64,000 bases of DNA from Acidimicrobiales bacterium (GTDB lineage Bacteria > Actinomycetota > Acidimicrobiia > Acidimicrobiales > SZUA-35). The notes beneath the pieces are model-generated. The model saw nothing but the letters and a program-made list of their open reading frames with translations, was not told the DNA's origin and made no database searches. The stretch covers positions 1-64,000 of the forward strand of contig JAHDCC010000003.1 in the NCBI GenBank assembly GCA_020630065.1, read 5' to 3'. The position numbers and the translations under genes were made by a program. The first letter of the stretch is position 1; each line of letters begins with the position of its first letter. Below, piece by piece: positions 31,844-36,830 of this stretch.

Positions 31844-32094
31844 ATCTCTCCGTTCTCTGCTGTTTTTTGGTGTTGTGTTCAGTTGGGTACTCTTGCCGAT
31901 AGCCCGATTGTTCCGAAATGTGGATAGATCGCCATTATTCTGGATTCCTTGATTTGGGGGGAATGCCGGAATGCCCGACTTTGGTGTATTAGAGTCTGCT
32001 GTTGCTGCGCATCAGAACCCAACTTTGGTTGCGTTGGCGCCACATAGATCGGGGTAGGCCTCAAACGCCGAACCCCTTGACCAGGAGGGGAAGA

Positions 32095-33159
32095 TTGAAT
32101 AGAAAACGTGTAGCAGTGACGTTGGCGGTGTTTGGTTTGGTGGCTTCGGCCTGTGGAGGTTCGTCTACAGCGGATGGGGGAACAGATTCCACGAGTGGAG
32201 ACAAAGTTGCCTTCTCGGATGAGAATCCGTACGGCACGGATTTTGACCCGAGTCTCAGAGCTGACAGCGAATACCAGATAGGGGTGTCGCTGCAGCAGGA
32301 AAAGGCAAACTTTTGGAAGGCAGTCAAAGAAGGTTCTGTTGACGCCGGAACTCGTACCGGAGCGCTTGAACCGGTGTTTGCTGACGGAAATAAAGACGCC
32401 GAAAAGCAGGCCGACGATGTTCGCAAGATGATCGAGGAAGGTTACGACGGGATAGTTCTCGGTGCAACTGATTCGACGGCAGCCGAGAACATTGTGACCG
32501 AGACGGCGGCAGCCGGCGTCCCGGTCATTGCGGTTGCTCTTCAGGTTGGAGACCCAGACTCCTACGGCGCTAACGCTGTTCACCCTGACACGATCGGTCT
32601 AGTTACAAATGACGACGTCGCTTTAGGGGCGACGGCGGCTGAGTTTGTTGTGCCGGTTGCGGCGCAGAAGGGGGCTCAGCTCAACATCGTGATTCTTGAA
32701 GGCACTCCCGGTGCCGCAAACACTACCTTGCGGTCGCAGGGGTTTATCGATGCGTTGGACGATAAGCAGATCGACTATCTTGTCACCGCTAGCCAGCCTG
32801 GTAACTTCGCTCGTGAGGATGGTGAAACGGCTTGTGCTGAGATGCTTTCCAGTGACGACACTATTGATTTGATCTTCTCTCAGTCGGATGAGATGACGGT
32901 TGGCTGTGTGAAGGCGCTGGAGGCCGATGGGCGAGAGTTGCCGATTGCCTCGATCGGCGGCAACGAGGAAGGTATAGCAATGGTGGCTGACGGGAGCGTT
33001 CTTGGAACGGTATGTCAGAAGCCTGCGACGATGGGGGCAGTTGCCACCCAGTTGATGGTCCGGCATCTCAACGGCGAAAATCTGGCCGGTGAAGTGTTCT
33101 TCTATCAAACCCCGGCGGTGACCGCTGACAATCTGGAAGACTGTGTGCCCGAATGGTAG
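32095..33159 (+). CDS. Sugar-type ABC transporter binding lipoprotein (copy 1)
   Basis: A 354-residue periplasmic-binding-protein-like lipoprotein (RbsB/FrcB type). The start is TTG at 32095 with a strong AGGAGGGG site; the frame is open to 32002 but that form has no signal. The signal is RKRVAVTLAVFGLVASAC, followed by a Ser/Thr/Gly linker. The two-lobe domain includes YQIGVSLQQEKANFWKAVKEG, IEEGYDGIVLGATDS, VPVIAVALQVG, IVILEGTPGAANTTLRSQGF, DLIFSQSDEMTVGCVKALE and ASIGGNEEGIAMV, like xylose/fructose/ribose binders. A close paralogue follows at 33495. It feeds the permease and ATPase at 34.7-36.8 kb. The sugar is unknown. Confidence 0.92.
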   Translation: MNRKRVAVTLAVFGLVASACGGSSTADGGTDSTSGDKVAFSDENPYGTDFDPSLRADSEYQIGVSLQQEKANFWKAVKEGSVDAGTRTGALEPVFADGNKDAEKQADDVRKMIEEGYDGIVLGATDSTAAENIVTETAAAGVPVIAVALQVGDPDSYGANAVHPDTIGLVTNDDVALGATAAEFVVPVAAQKGAQLNIVILEGTPGAANTTLRSQGFIDALDDKQIDYLVTASQPGNFAREDGETACAEMLSSDDTIDLIFSQSDEMTVGCVKALEADGRELPIASIGGNEEGIAMVADGSVLGTVCQKPATMGAVATQLMVRHLNGENLAGEVFFYQTPAVTADNLEDCVPEW

Positions 33160-33190: not shown

Positions 33191-33227
33191 AAACCCCGCG
33201 GCGTGCATATTGCGCTGCGGGGTTTTT
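33191..33227 (+). terminator. Rho-independent terminator after binding protein copy 1
   Basis: A 13-base stem with one G-T pair (33191-33203 with 33213-33225), a 9-base loop and a TTTTT run at its end. It lies 31 bases after the stop, so the two binding-protein genes are probably transcribed separately or with read-through. Confidence 0.88.
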
Positions 33228-33239
33228 GCTTAGGTTTCC

Positions 33240-33494
33240 GAATCGGGTGGCTCAGTGTCAATATGGGCCGCAAGACACGCTGTATTTAGAAGTATTTATA
33301 GCAATATATAACTGTTTTGTTGTAGTGGATATCAATTTAATGGTGCGCAGGTAAGGGCCAGACGGCAAGCTAAAGTGTCAATATGCTGACATCCAGTCAA
33401 TATCTTGACTATTCGCCTGTGACCGTGGCAACATGAGTTCAGTCAAGACTCGTGATTTCGGTCTCGGGTCCTACCCAAACCTGGGAGGGGAAAA
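33240..33494 (+). promoter_or_regulatory. Promoter and paired operator-like sites before copy 2
   Basis: The intergenic tract from 33160 to 33494 has no gene. After the terminator it becomes AT-rich. Two related inverted repeats lie at 33377-33390 (GTCAATATGCTGAC) and 33396-33409 (GTCAATATCTTGAC), and a half-like copy GTCAATATGG at 33257. The second repeat overlaps a TTGACT hexamer (33405-33410) that fits a -35 box, with CAACAT (33429-33434) 18 bases later as a possible -10. The leader would be about 55 bases, ending in GGGAGGGG before the TTG start. A dimeric repressor or activator is likely. Confidence 0.6.
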
Positions 33495-34598
33495 TTGAGT
33501 ATGAAACGTTTAGGAGTACTGGTTGCAGTGCTCGGTCTCGTTGCTTCTGCTTGCGGAGGCTCAACAACCGACACCGATACCACCGAAGGTGAAAGCTCTG
33601 AAACCACAGCAGCAGGAACCGAAGAAACAACAACCGAAGGTGACGAAGCCGCAGCAGGCGACAGCCCATATGGTGAGGACTTCGATCCTGCACTTAAAGC
33701 TGACGACAACTACCAGATCGGTGTAGCTCTACAACAAGAGAAAGCTGCATTCTGGGGATCTGTCAAAGAAGGTTCTGTAGATGCTGGTGTTCGCGCCGCA
33801 GTCGATGAGCCATTCTTCGCAGACGGCAACGCCGACTCAACGATCCAAGAAAACCAGATCAAGAACATGATCGTCGAAGGTTACGACGGAATCGTCCTTG
33901 GTGCTACCAACTCTGAAGCGGCTGAAGCAATCGTTGCCGAAACTTCTGAGGCTGACATTCCCGTCGTAGCGGTAGCGCTGCAGGTTGGAGATCCAGCTGA
34001 ATACGGAGCAAACGCTGTTCACCCAGACACCGTTGGTCTTGTAACCAACGACGATGTGTCAATGGGTCGAGTCGCAGCTGAATTCGTTGTTCCGATTGCT
34101 GAAGAGAAGGGCGAAGCGCTTAATATCGTCATCCTCGAGGGAACCGCTGGTGCGGCTAACACTGAACTTCGTGGTCAGGGTTTCCAAGAAGGCCTAGATG
34201 AGTCTGGTGTTGAGTACGAAATCACCAACCGACAAAACGGTGATTTCAAGCGTGAATTCGCCCAGAACGCATGTCAGTCAATGCTCGCAGCAGACGACGA
34301 GATCGATCTGATCTACTCCCAGTCTGACGAAATGACCATTGGTTGTGTTGTGGCGATGAAAGACGCCGGGCGGGAAATTCCAATCGCCTCTATCGGAGGT
34401 AACGAAGAAGGAATCGCCTTGGTAGCTGACGGAAGCGTTCTTGGAACGGTATGTCAGAAGCCAGCAACCATGGGAGCTGTTGCCACCCAGTTGTTGATTC
34501 GCCATCTAAATGGAGAAGAACTCGGAACTGATCCGTTCTTCTACGCCACTCCAGCAATCACCAAAGACAACTTGGACGATTGCATCCCTGAGTGGTAA
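33495..34598 (+). CDS. Sugar-type ABC transporter binding lipoprotein (copy 2)
   Basis: A 367-residue paralogue of the previous gene, close along its whole length. It has a lipobox signal (MKRLGVLVAVLGLVASAC), a longer Glu/Thr-rich linker (~25-60) and the same two-lobe domain (YQIGVALQQEKAAFWGSVKEG, NMIVEGYDGIVLGATNS, AANTELRGQGFQEGL, DLIYSQSDEMTIGC, ASIGGNEEGIALVADGSVLG). The start is TTG at 33495 (or ATG at 33501) behind GGGAGGGG. Codon use leans to A/C-ending forms compared with copy 1, consistent with high expression; a 29-base stretch near the 3' part (34434-34462) is identical to copy 1. A strong hairpin lies between this gene and the permease. Confidence 0.93.
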   Translation: MSMKRLGVLVAVLGLVASACGGSTTDTDTTEGESSETTAAGTEETTTEGDEAAAGDSPYGEDFDPALKADDNYQIGVALQQEKAAFWGSVKEGSVDAGVRAAVDEPFFADGNADSTIQENQIKNMIVEGYDGIVLGATNSEAAEAIVAETSEADIPVVAVALQVGDPAEYGANAVHPDTVGLVTNDDVSMGRVAAEFVVPIAEEKGEALNIVILEGTAGAANTELRGQGFQEGLDESGVEYEITNRQNGDFKREFAQNACQSMLAADDEIDLIYSQSDEMTIGCVVAMKDAGREIPIASIGGNEEGIALVADGSVLGTVCQKPATMGAVATQLLIRHLNGEELGTDPFFYATPAITKDNLDDCIPEW

Positions 34599-34740: not shown

Positions 34741-35961
34741 ATGAGTAGTAGCGGCGGCGCTACGGGATTTAAAGACACAGGCGTCGAAGCCTCACGTCTT
34801 TCAAATCTTTCTGATGTATTATCGTTTCGCAACGCTGGTGTCTTTTACGCACTAGTCACAATTCTTCTGATCTTCACCGTTTGGGTCCAGCTGATCGGAA
34901 AGAACTTCTATCTAGGAGCAGCAAACGTCGAGAATATTCTCGAACAAGCCGCTTCCCCCGTAGGCATGATGGCAGTCGGAATGACCGTACTGCTTATCAG
35001 CGGGAACTTCGACCTTTCGGTCGCCTCCAACGGTGCCTTCTCCGCCATGTTCATAGCTGTCTCGGTCGAGCACGACTTGTTCGGCTTTATCGGTAACGTG
35101 GAAGTGGAAGTAATCGTAATCCTGATCATCGCCATCCTGCTGGCTTGTGTCGGCGGTTTGATCAACGGGCTAGTTCACTGGTTTGTCGGTTTGAACTCCT
35201 TCATCGTTACGTTGGGGACGCTGTCCGCCTTTCGTGGAATGGCTCTCTTAATTTCAGGTCGTCAGTCGATTACCTTCCGTAACACAGAGCACGGCGAATT
35301 CATGGAACGGTTCATCGGTGGAGACATCGGCGAATTTAACTTATTCCTACTCGTCGGTGGCGTCCTCATCGTTGTTGCCGCTCTCACATTTCTCACCGGT
35401 CGTCAAATGGCTGCTGGTGTATGCGCGGCATCTGGCCTAGCGCTTATCGTGTTGTCATTCCTAGTCGACTACTCGACTGAGATATCACACAAACTCGTAG
35501 TCCTCGTCACGCTCGTGGTTGCAACATGGGCAGTAATGACCTACACGTCGTATGGCCGCAGAGTCTACGCAGTAGGCGGAAACCTTGAGGCAGCTAAAGC
35601 CGCAGGTATCAACGTTGGCCTCTATCGGGTAATGTGCTTCGTCTTTCTAGGTTTCTGCTGCGGTCTAGCGGCGGTAACCATGATCTCTAAACTCCAGAGT
35701 GTCGAGCCAAACCTTTGGCTAACACAAGAACTCTTCGTGATCGCCTCCGCCATTATTGGTGGGGTATCGCTCCTCGGTGGAGCGGGAAGTGTGCTCAAAA
35801 CCATGGCTGGTGCGATTCTTCTGACCGTGTTGACCAACGGGTTCTCATTCCTAGCGTTCCCATCAGAAGTTCAGCTCATCGCAGTCGGCCTGTTGGTAAT
35901 CCTGTCAGCTTCAGCTTATGTAGTCGCTGGTCGTCGAGCCATTGCGAAAGGAAAGATCTAA
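34741..35961 (+). CDS. Sugar-type ABC transporter permease (RbsC/FrcC family)
   Basis: A 406-residue permease with about 10 membrane helices, of the ribose/fructose importer family. Key blocks are the EAA-related AMTVLLISGNFDLSVASNGAFSAMF (the DLS motif), GGLINGLVHWFVGLNSFIVTLGTLSAFRGMALLISG, GRRVYAVGGNLEAAKAAGINV and ASAIIGGVSLLGGAGSVLKTMAGAI. A clear GGAGGA site precedes the ATG. It ends in TAATG, sharing one base with the ATPase. It forms a homodimeric channel partner for the two binding proteins upstream. Confidence 0.94.
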   Translation: MSSSGGATGFKDTGVEASRLSNLSDVLSFRNAGVFYALVTILLIFTVWVQLIGKNFYLGAANVENILEQAASPVGMMAVGMTVLLISGNFDLSVASNGAFSAMFIAVSVEHDLFGFIGNVEVEVIVILIIAILLACVGGLINGLVHWFVGLNSFIVTLGTLSAFRGMALLISGRQSITFRNTEHGEFMERFIGGDIGEFNLFLLVGGVLIVVAALTFLTGRQMAAGVCAASGLALIVLSFLVDYSTEISHKLVVLVTLVVATWAVMTYTSYGRRVYAVGGNLEAAKAAGINVGLYRVMCFVFLGFCCGLAAVTMISKLQSVEPNLWLTQELFVIASAIIGGVSLLGGAGSVLKTMAGAILLTVLTNGFSFLAFPSEVQLIAVGLLVILSASAYVVAGRRAIAKGKI

Positions 35962-36767
35962 TGAACACATCTTCTACAGTAGACAAAGTCAACGACACCG
36001 AGGGAAGCGCGGAACCTATTCTTCAGATCCGCGACGTAAGCAAAAACTTTGGTGCGGTGCAAGCGCTGAAGTCTGTCTCGTTTGATGTGACTCCAGGTTC
36101 AATCACTGGACTTATCGGTGACAACGGTGCCGGTAAATCGACGATGGTGAAAATCATCTCTGGGGTCCACAAACCATCTTCGGGCAGCCTCATGCTCGAA
36201 GGCAAGCCAACCAACTTCAGTAACCCAGGTGAAGCTCGAGCCTCGAACATCGAAACAGTGTTCCAAACGTTGGAACTGGTAGAAGAGTTCGACGTTGCCG
36301 AGAACTTTTATATGGGACGAGATATAACTTTCCTCGGTCCGCTCAAAGTAAATCGAACTAGCCTGATGCGTTCTAGGGCAGCCGAAGCAGTCGGACAACT
36401 AGGGATCAACATTCCCGGTGGTGTGACCCGGAAAGTTCGTACGATGTCGGGTGGTCAGCGACAAGCTGTTGCCATCGCCAGAGCGGCATTTTGGAACTCG
36501 AAAGTTCTGCTGCTCGACGAGCCGACCGCAGCCTTAGGTGTGCGAGAAACCGAACAGGTACTTCAACTTGTTGAGAAACTGCGCGACAACGGCGCAGCGA
36601 TTCTTCTCATCAGCCACAACATGCGCGATGTGCAACGCTTGTGCGACCAAGTTGTTGTACTACGTCAAGGACGTCGAACCGGTTTCCTCGAAGGTGAATT
36701 CACCGGAGAGGATTGTGTCTCCTACATCACGGGTGCACGATCGGACATTGCAGAAGAAGAACTGTAA
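35961..36767 (+). CDS. Single-domain sugar-type ABC ATPase (FrcA-like)
   Basis: A 268-residue ATPase with one nucleotide-binding domain: Walker A GDNGAGKSTMVKI, Q loop FQTLELVEEFDVAENFYMG, signature MSGGQRQAVAIARAA, Walker B VLLLDEPTAALGVRE and H loop LLISHN. Ribose/xylose importers usually have a fused double ATPase of ~500 residues; a single-domain one is the FrcA (fructose) arrangement. The ATG at 35961 overlaps the permease stop. The frame is open back to 35715 but that part lies in the permease. A terminator follows. It completes a binding protein-permease-ATPase set. Confidence 0.94.
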   Translation: MNTSSTVDKVNDTEGSAEPILQIRDVSKNFGAVQALKSVSFDVTPGSITGLIGDNGAGKSTMVKIISGVHKPSSGSLMLEGKPTNFSNPGEARASNIETVFQTLELVEEFDVAENFYMGRDITFLGPLKVNRTSLMRSRAAEAVGQLGINIPGGVTRKVRTMSGGQRQAVAIARAAFWNSKVLLLDEPTAALGVRETEQVLQLVEKLRDNGAAILLISHNMRDVQRLCDQVVVLRQGRRTGFLEGEFTGEDCVSYITGARSDIAEEEL

Positions 36768-36794
36768 GACAAAAAGCGTAACTCATGATGTTGT

Positions 36795-36830
36795 TGTGGT
36801 CCGGCCTCTTGGTCGGGCCACAGCCATTTT
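36795..36830 (+). terminator. Terminator of the sugar ABC operon
   Basis: A stem TGTGGTCCG (36795-36803) and CGGGCCACA (36814-36822) with one wobble pair, followed by CCATTTTTA. It is 27 bases after the ATPase stop. Confidence 0.8.

Follow-up and report, generated by a model that had tools for sequence, protein, structure and literature searches.

A predicted tandem operator upstream of a sugar transporter operon

The window, that is, the whole stretch of 64,000 nucleotides analysed here, is part of contig 7 of the 3.70-Mb assembly of an Acidimicrobiales bacterium. A pair of inverted repeats at 33376-33410 is probably a tandem IclR operator through which an IclR protein, likely one encoded on contig 8 (C8), would repress the second copy of a sugar-binding-protein gene together with a permease and an ATPase gene, in step with catabolism. 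The pair lies in the gap of about 340 bp between two tandem binding-protein genes on the forward strand. Copy 1 (32095-33159; TTG start picked by eye) is 68% identical to copy 2 (33501-34598; Peripla_BP_4, E 2.4e-40), which is the first gene after the operator; an ATG start was assigned to copy 2, and its reading frame holds a further TTG at 33495. Genes for a sugar ABC permease (34741-35961; BPD_transp_2) and a sugar ABC ATPase (35961-36767; ABC_tran) follow on the same strand, the start of the latter having been set within a longer ORF from 35715. The binding protein shows a distant likeness to ribose- and allose-type proteins, and the nearest named loci by this protein belong to uncultured Acidimicrobiales MAGs.

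Terminator-like hairpins on the forward strand border this gene set. The first lies between copy 1 and the operator (33191-33225; inverted repeat I1; -27.9 kcal/mol); none of 200 shuffles was as stable, and the terminator scan did not list it. The second, 3' of the ATPase gene (36793-36824; 14 pairs), was found by the terminator scan and had the longest stem among the eight such sites called in the region, compared with 5.6 in shuffles. Since a hairpin follows copy 1 and the pair is succeeded by copy 2, the permease, the ATPase and a second hairpin, the pair appears to serve these three genes and not copy 1. Upstream of copy 1 (31910-31945), GTTCCGAAATGTGGAT (31910) and CGCCATTATTCTGGAT (31930) form a weak pair with a 20-bp step; its score of 10.6 was at background level, and it is perhaps a relic or decayed copy of the operator. 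Within 600 bases of the two paralogues in the same genome (C64 and C68; 38 and 37% identical), no pair scored above 11.2 (11.2 and 9.7, respectively).

The two sites, predicted without strand assignment, are TGTCAATATGCTGACA (site 1, 33376-33391; palindromic at 6/8) and AGTCAATATCTTGACT (site 2, 33395-33410; 7/8), which scored 8.8 and 12.3 with a matrix derived from three loci elsewhere in the genome. They are joined by TCC, their centres are 19 bp apart, and as centred 16-mers they agree with each other at 12 of 16 positions. The initial annotation had claimed paired inverted repeats at 33377-33409, 19 bases apart, and this was confirmed: the cores GTCAATATGCTGAC (33377-33390) and GTCAATATCTTGAC (33396-33409) are in place with a start-to-start distance of 19 bases. 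Exact matches to GTCAATATNNTGAC occurred three times in the 3.70-Mb assembly and the reversed control pattern not at all. Two of the three are the window pair, and the third (C14:4706) is single, within an ORF and without a partner at 19 bp.

The single motif was unremarkable in the window (9 matches at up to two mismatches, both strands counted, against 3.96 expected; 5 of 100 shuffles equalled this), and thus the evidence sits in the pair. Palindromy alone was as good in 6 of 300 shuffles of the 341-bp gap; palindromy combined with mutual likeness, at spacings of 16-30, was reached by none of 1000. With a matrix made without the window, the pair scored 21.0 and ranked first among 63,966 window positions (next 10.3), this matrix being not wholly independent of the window in that its C75 member was found with the window motif and its C8 and C14 members came from scanning loci picked for their IclR genes. 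One of 3000 gap shuffles was as good when spacings of 18-22 were allowed, and at a spacing of 19 none of 5000 was, the top shuffle (20.3) coming close to the window's own score. A chance occurrence is hence unlikely. The view that these are functionless palindromes can draw on the near-expected number of single-site matches at two mismatches, on the shuffle result for palindromy alone and on the patchy conservation in relatives; against the pair statistics and the recurrence described below, we give it very little credence.

Recurrence of the 19-bp arrangement in the genome

A genome search for the repeats, which the initial annotation had proposed as a check, bore out its reading. With up to three mismatches allowed, the paired pattern with its 19-bp step was found at seven places in the whole genome, namely the window, C75:22801, C8:155299, C14:62638, C29:19732, C81:16430 and C64:101834, whereas the reversed control gave none. 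Another paired pattern, in which the arms read TYC/GRA, matched C8, C75, C14 and a fourth place, and its control matched none; the window pair has four mismatches to this pattern, which is beyond its limit. With leave-one-locus-out matrices, the pairs at C75 (32.6; next 9.6), C8 (23.7; 11.5) and C14 (21.4; 13.1) each ranked first in their stretches, as the window pair did in its own. When the best partner was sought 12-44 bp downstream of site 1, it lay at 19 bp in all four pairs of this genome, and for C75, C8 and C14 none of 3000 gap shuffles each was as good with spacings of 18-22 allowed. Across about 244,000 positions of the genome, a matrix from the same four pairs gave them 36.2, 31.9, 30.3 and 26.6, against 17.1 for the runner-up. 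This runner-up (L038:4959) lies within an ORF and was taken as chance, as were the paired-pattern matches at C81 (12.9) and C64 (11.2), likewise within ORFs; C16 (12.3) was dropped as an operator pair. Stretches L059-L063 entered the score census only, and L057 entered the census and one reading of gene neighbourhoods only.

The gene content near these pairs is partly that of sugar-acid breakdown. The C8 pair precedes gnd (6-phosphogluconate dehydrogenase, above the NCBIfam cut-off), which is followed by an SDR gene like gluconate 5-dehydrogenase and a dehydrogenase gene like L-idonate 5-dehydrogenase (both below cut-off), a SKI-family kinase gene and two IclR genes. A 16-mer, ATCCAATTGGCTCACT, occurs twice in this cluster (L055:8880 and 9035, 155 bases apart), 3' of gnd and around the SDR start. 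The C14 pair precedes a 2-hydroxyacid dehydrogenase gene, with another ORF starting on its other side; the cluster includes an IclR gene, a 2-hydroxy-3-oxopropionate-reductase-like gene (below cut-off) and an SMP-30/gluconolactonase-like gene. Between the IclR and reductase-like genes there is also a single good site (L056:6913-6928; score 12.0). The top-scoring tandem pair, at C75 (G000:C75:22799-22833; L058:9300-9334), precedes a DoxX gene, for which no connection to sugar acids is apparent. The C29 pair (G000:C29:19732-19762; L067:1499-1533) scored 22.6 though it was outside the matrix; it lies outside any ORF of at least 80 aa and ends one base 5' of the chosen ATG of an alpha-amylase-family gene, making it a possible fifth site and further member of the regulon.

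Conservation in related genomes

Orthologous transporter loci were found in two Acidimicrobiales relatives, L034 and L035 (which appear to be G509:C7 and G028:C1). In both, the operon reads IclR, binding protein, permease, ATPase, gnd, idonate-dehydrogenase-like gene, SDR and kinase, where the L035 IclR and the L034 permease, dehydrogenase and kinase were tested against profiles and the others were read from translations. Upstream of the L034 binding-protein gene, the gap contains GTACATAGTATTGGTC and GCCCAGAATATTGGAC with a 19-bp step (score 14.7, ranked first of 8375; matched by 9 of 3000 shuffles). L035 has one good palindrome, GTCCAATATGTGGGAC (12/3000 shuffles), whose partner, 20 bp away, is weak; the resulting pair score of 9.4 (42/3000) is not above some of those at loci taken as operator-less (9.7, 9.7 and 11.2). 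Among distant homologues (35-41% identical), no pair was present in the 600 bases upstream (L036 2.8, G023 5.4, G034 9.7, G015 2.7). By these scores, the operator is well conserved in one of the two close relatives and partly so in the other, and it is missing from the more distant homologues. The initial annotation had staked its reading on conservation of the repeats before orthologous genes. The L034 pair supports it, while the single palindrome with a background-level partner in L035 and the four distant homologues do not; the reading is not refuted.

The first paired pattern, at up to two mismatches, matched 18 of 395 genomes of the class: five places in our genome and one in each of the other 17, of which 12 fall in one genus (g109). 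The reversed control matched in 5 genomes. The binding protein was found at E ≤1e-40 in 5 of 39 family genomes, our own included; at E ≤1e-60 it was found in our own genome only among the 395 class genomes, with at most five candidates per genome scored and in a set evidently without G028. IclR searches matched 2 of 39 family genomes at E ≤1e-25 and, by alignment at E ≤1e-45, 3 of 397 genomes of the order.

Candidate regulator

Protein and neighbourhood comparisons point to the IclR product of G000:C8:159474-160253 as the most likely regulator of the window pair; it passes the Pfam cut-off for both HTH_IclR (1.5e-10) and IclR_C (1.1e-21). An IclR search of the genome gave four matches, none of them on contig 7. 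IclR genes are linked to the C8 and C14 clusters and the L034 and L035 operons, but not to the window transporter. In one and the same search, identity to the L035 IclR was 55% for the C8 protein, 50% for C14 (C14:59953-60696) and 40% for the second C8 protein, C8b (C8:160328-161023). The C8 protein is thus the closest in this genome to the IclR encoded directly 5' of the orthologous operon in two relatives, and on this ground it was preferred. It is possible, with a rather low probability, that one of the other two paralogues binds the window pair instead, or that several share the sites. They are related to the C8 protein (C14 42%, C8b 35% identical), so that the binder need not be unique, and one operator grammar is found throughout; in addition, the window and C75 pairs have GTCAATATCTTGA in common, whereas C8 and C14 are richer in GTTC-type arms. 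However, the C8 protein has 54-55% identity to the two IclR proteins encoded next to the orthologous transporters, and all three have the RAKST stretch in the helix-turn-helix, which we take to be the recognition helix, where C14 has LPKSS and C8b has APRST.

Could the site belong to a regulator of another family? LacI and ROK proteins are frequent controllers of sugar ABC operons, and the window sites deviate from the IclR consensus in their outer bases. Binding by a LacI, ROK or GntR protein, with the IclR-site likeness arising by convergence, is nevertheless quite improbable in view of the IclR gene linkage in four clusters (C8, C14, L034 and L035) and the 19-bp step.

Comparison with published IclR systems

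For many IclR-family regulators, Suvorova and Gelfand (2021; PMC8222616) predict operators made of palindromes in tandem, spaced 18-22 nt apart. The distance between centres falls within this range, at 19 bp, in the window and at three other loci of the genome. The initial annotation had taken the repeats for two operators through which copy 2 is regulated, and had named no regulator family; its proposal was right in outline, being supported by the recurrence at three more loci, by the similar pair that precedes the orthologue in one relative and by this published prediction. Features in common with the NGT-12-ACN subgroup of group 1 are a palindrome of even length around a TCAAWAT-like core, tandem centres about 19 nt apart, and sugar-acid and SDR-type genes nearby. 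The window pair differs from the subgroup in that the outer GT/AC bases are shifted (TGTC, AGTC) and in that the operator and the best regulator candidate are on separate contigs. Compared with the core GTYCRAW4TYGRAC, the window sites match at 10 and 11 of 16 positions, and the other sites of the genome and those of the relatives at 12-14. The window sites are thus the poorest fit to the published consensus, with TG/AG instead of GT as outer bases.

Two described regulators bear some likeness. For NpdR of Rhodococcus opacus, Table 1 of the same paper gives the motif GTTCMRYATMRTGAWS, which is much like the C8, C14 and C75 sites (GTTCACTATCATGAAC, GGTCAGTATATTGAAC). However, NpdR is tied to trinitrophenol use. 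LgnR of Paracoccus sp. 43P, going by a reference title in PMC12632266, is an IclR-family regulator of L-gluconate catabolism; control of gluconate-type catabolic genes is also the role predicted for the candidate here, but LgnR is from another phylum. Among the papers listed by literature searches on IclR with idonate and on IclR with Acidimicrobi, none showed a description of the present regulon. Overall, spacing, symmetry, gene content and the linkage in relatives fit an IclR tandem operator; the window sites can be assigned to the exact consensus tentatively at most.

Promoter context and direction of control

The right arm of site 2 contains TTGACT (33405-33410, forward strand), a possible -35 hexamer picked by eye. 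The overlap claimed earlier between the repeats and a -35 box holds as far as the hexamer goes, with five of six positions matching TTGACA. However, its possible -10 partner is poor (CAACAT at 33429-33434, spacer 18, also picked by eye), and the promoter scan called neither TTGACT nor any promoter at the operator site. We treat it as a candidate -35 box of the copy 2 promoter. A further partial copy had been claimed at 33257. Here, a 12-nt exact repeat of the site 1 left arm, AGTGTCAATATG, does stand at 33254-33265 on the forward strand (second copy at 33374-33385, 120 bp downstream), but it is a half-site without a right arm, with a matrix score of 2.1 against 13.8 and 16.5 for sites 1 and 2, and was ruled out as a third operator. 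A stretch similar to this repeat, GTCAATATGGG, was observed at L035:1318-1333, shortly 5' of the IclR gene there.

Activators occur within the IclR family, and the C75 pair stands well upstream of a better -10-like hexamer, TAGAAT (by eye). It is unlikely, though, that the regulator acts as an activator from the window sites. TATAAT lies inside one C8 site and one C14 site, the C14 pair is just 5' of a start codon, and window site 2 overlaps TTGACT; repression is favoured by these positions.

Proposed mechanism

In the mechanism that we propose, the IclR protein would bind the pair as two dimers, possibly as one tetramer, with both sites facing the same side of the helix at a distance of two turns. 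Cooperative binding, which the initial annotation had read from the spacing, is one possibility. Bound to the pair, the protein would block the promoter of copy 2, permease and ATPase, and a sugar acid or its metabolite, as effector, would free it from the DNA. The same regulator may also control the matching breakdown genes elsewhere in the genome.

The L034 and L035 operon equals the window operon plus the C8 cluster, which suggests that the cluster may have been split in our genome, with transport on contig 7, the gnd, SDR, idonate-dehydrogenase-like, kinase and IclR genes on contig 8, and a like tandem operator before each half; the opposite direction, a fusion in L034 and L035, could give the same picture. 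We also consider, tentatively and as less than an even chance, a wider scheme in which one sugar-acid operon with one IclR was split into two distant units that kept or regained the tandem operator, and in which IclR paralogues, the DoxX gene and perhaps the C29 alpha-amylase-family gene share the 19-bp grammar. Under this scheme there may be cross-talk, with more than one IclR protein acting at a common set of sites.

Significance

From its sequence features, the window pair can be regarded as an ordinary but well-supported new example of the known IclR tandem-operator switch, and the general understanding of IclR regulation is unchanged by it. What is gained concerns an uncultured Acidimicrobiales lineage, for which a candidate regulon can now be put forward, together with a motif and the family of its likely regulator. 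An orphan transporter would thereby be tied to a cluster of catabolic genes of the gluconate/idonate type that lies on a different contig, and through this link the substrate of the transporter can be guessed.
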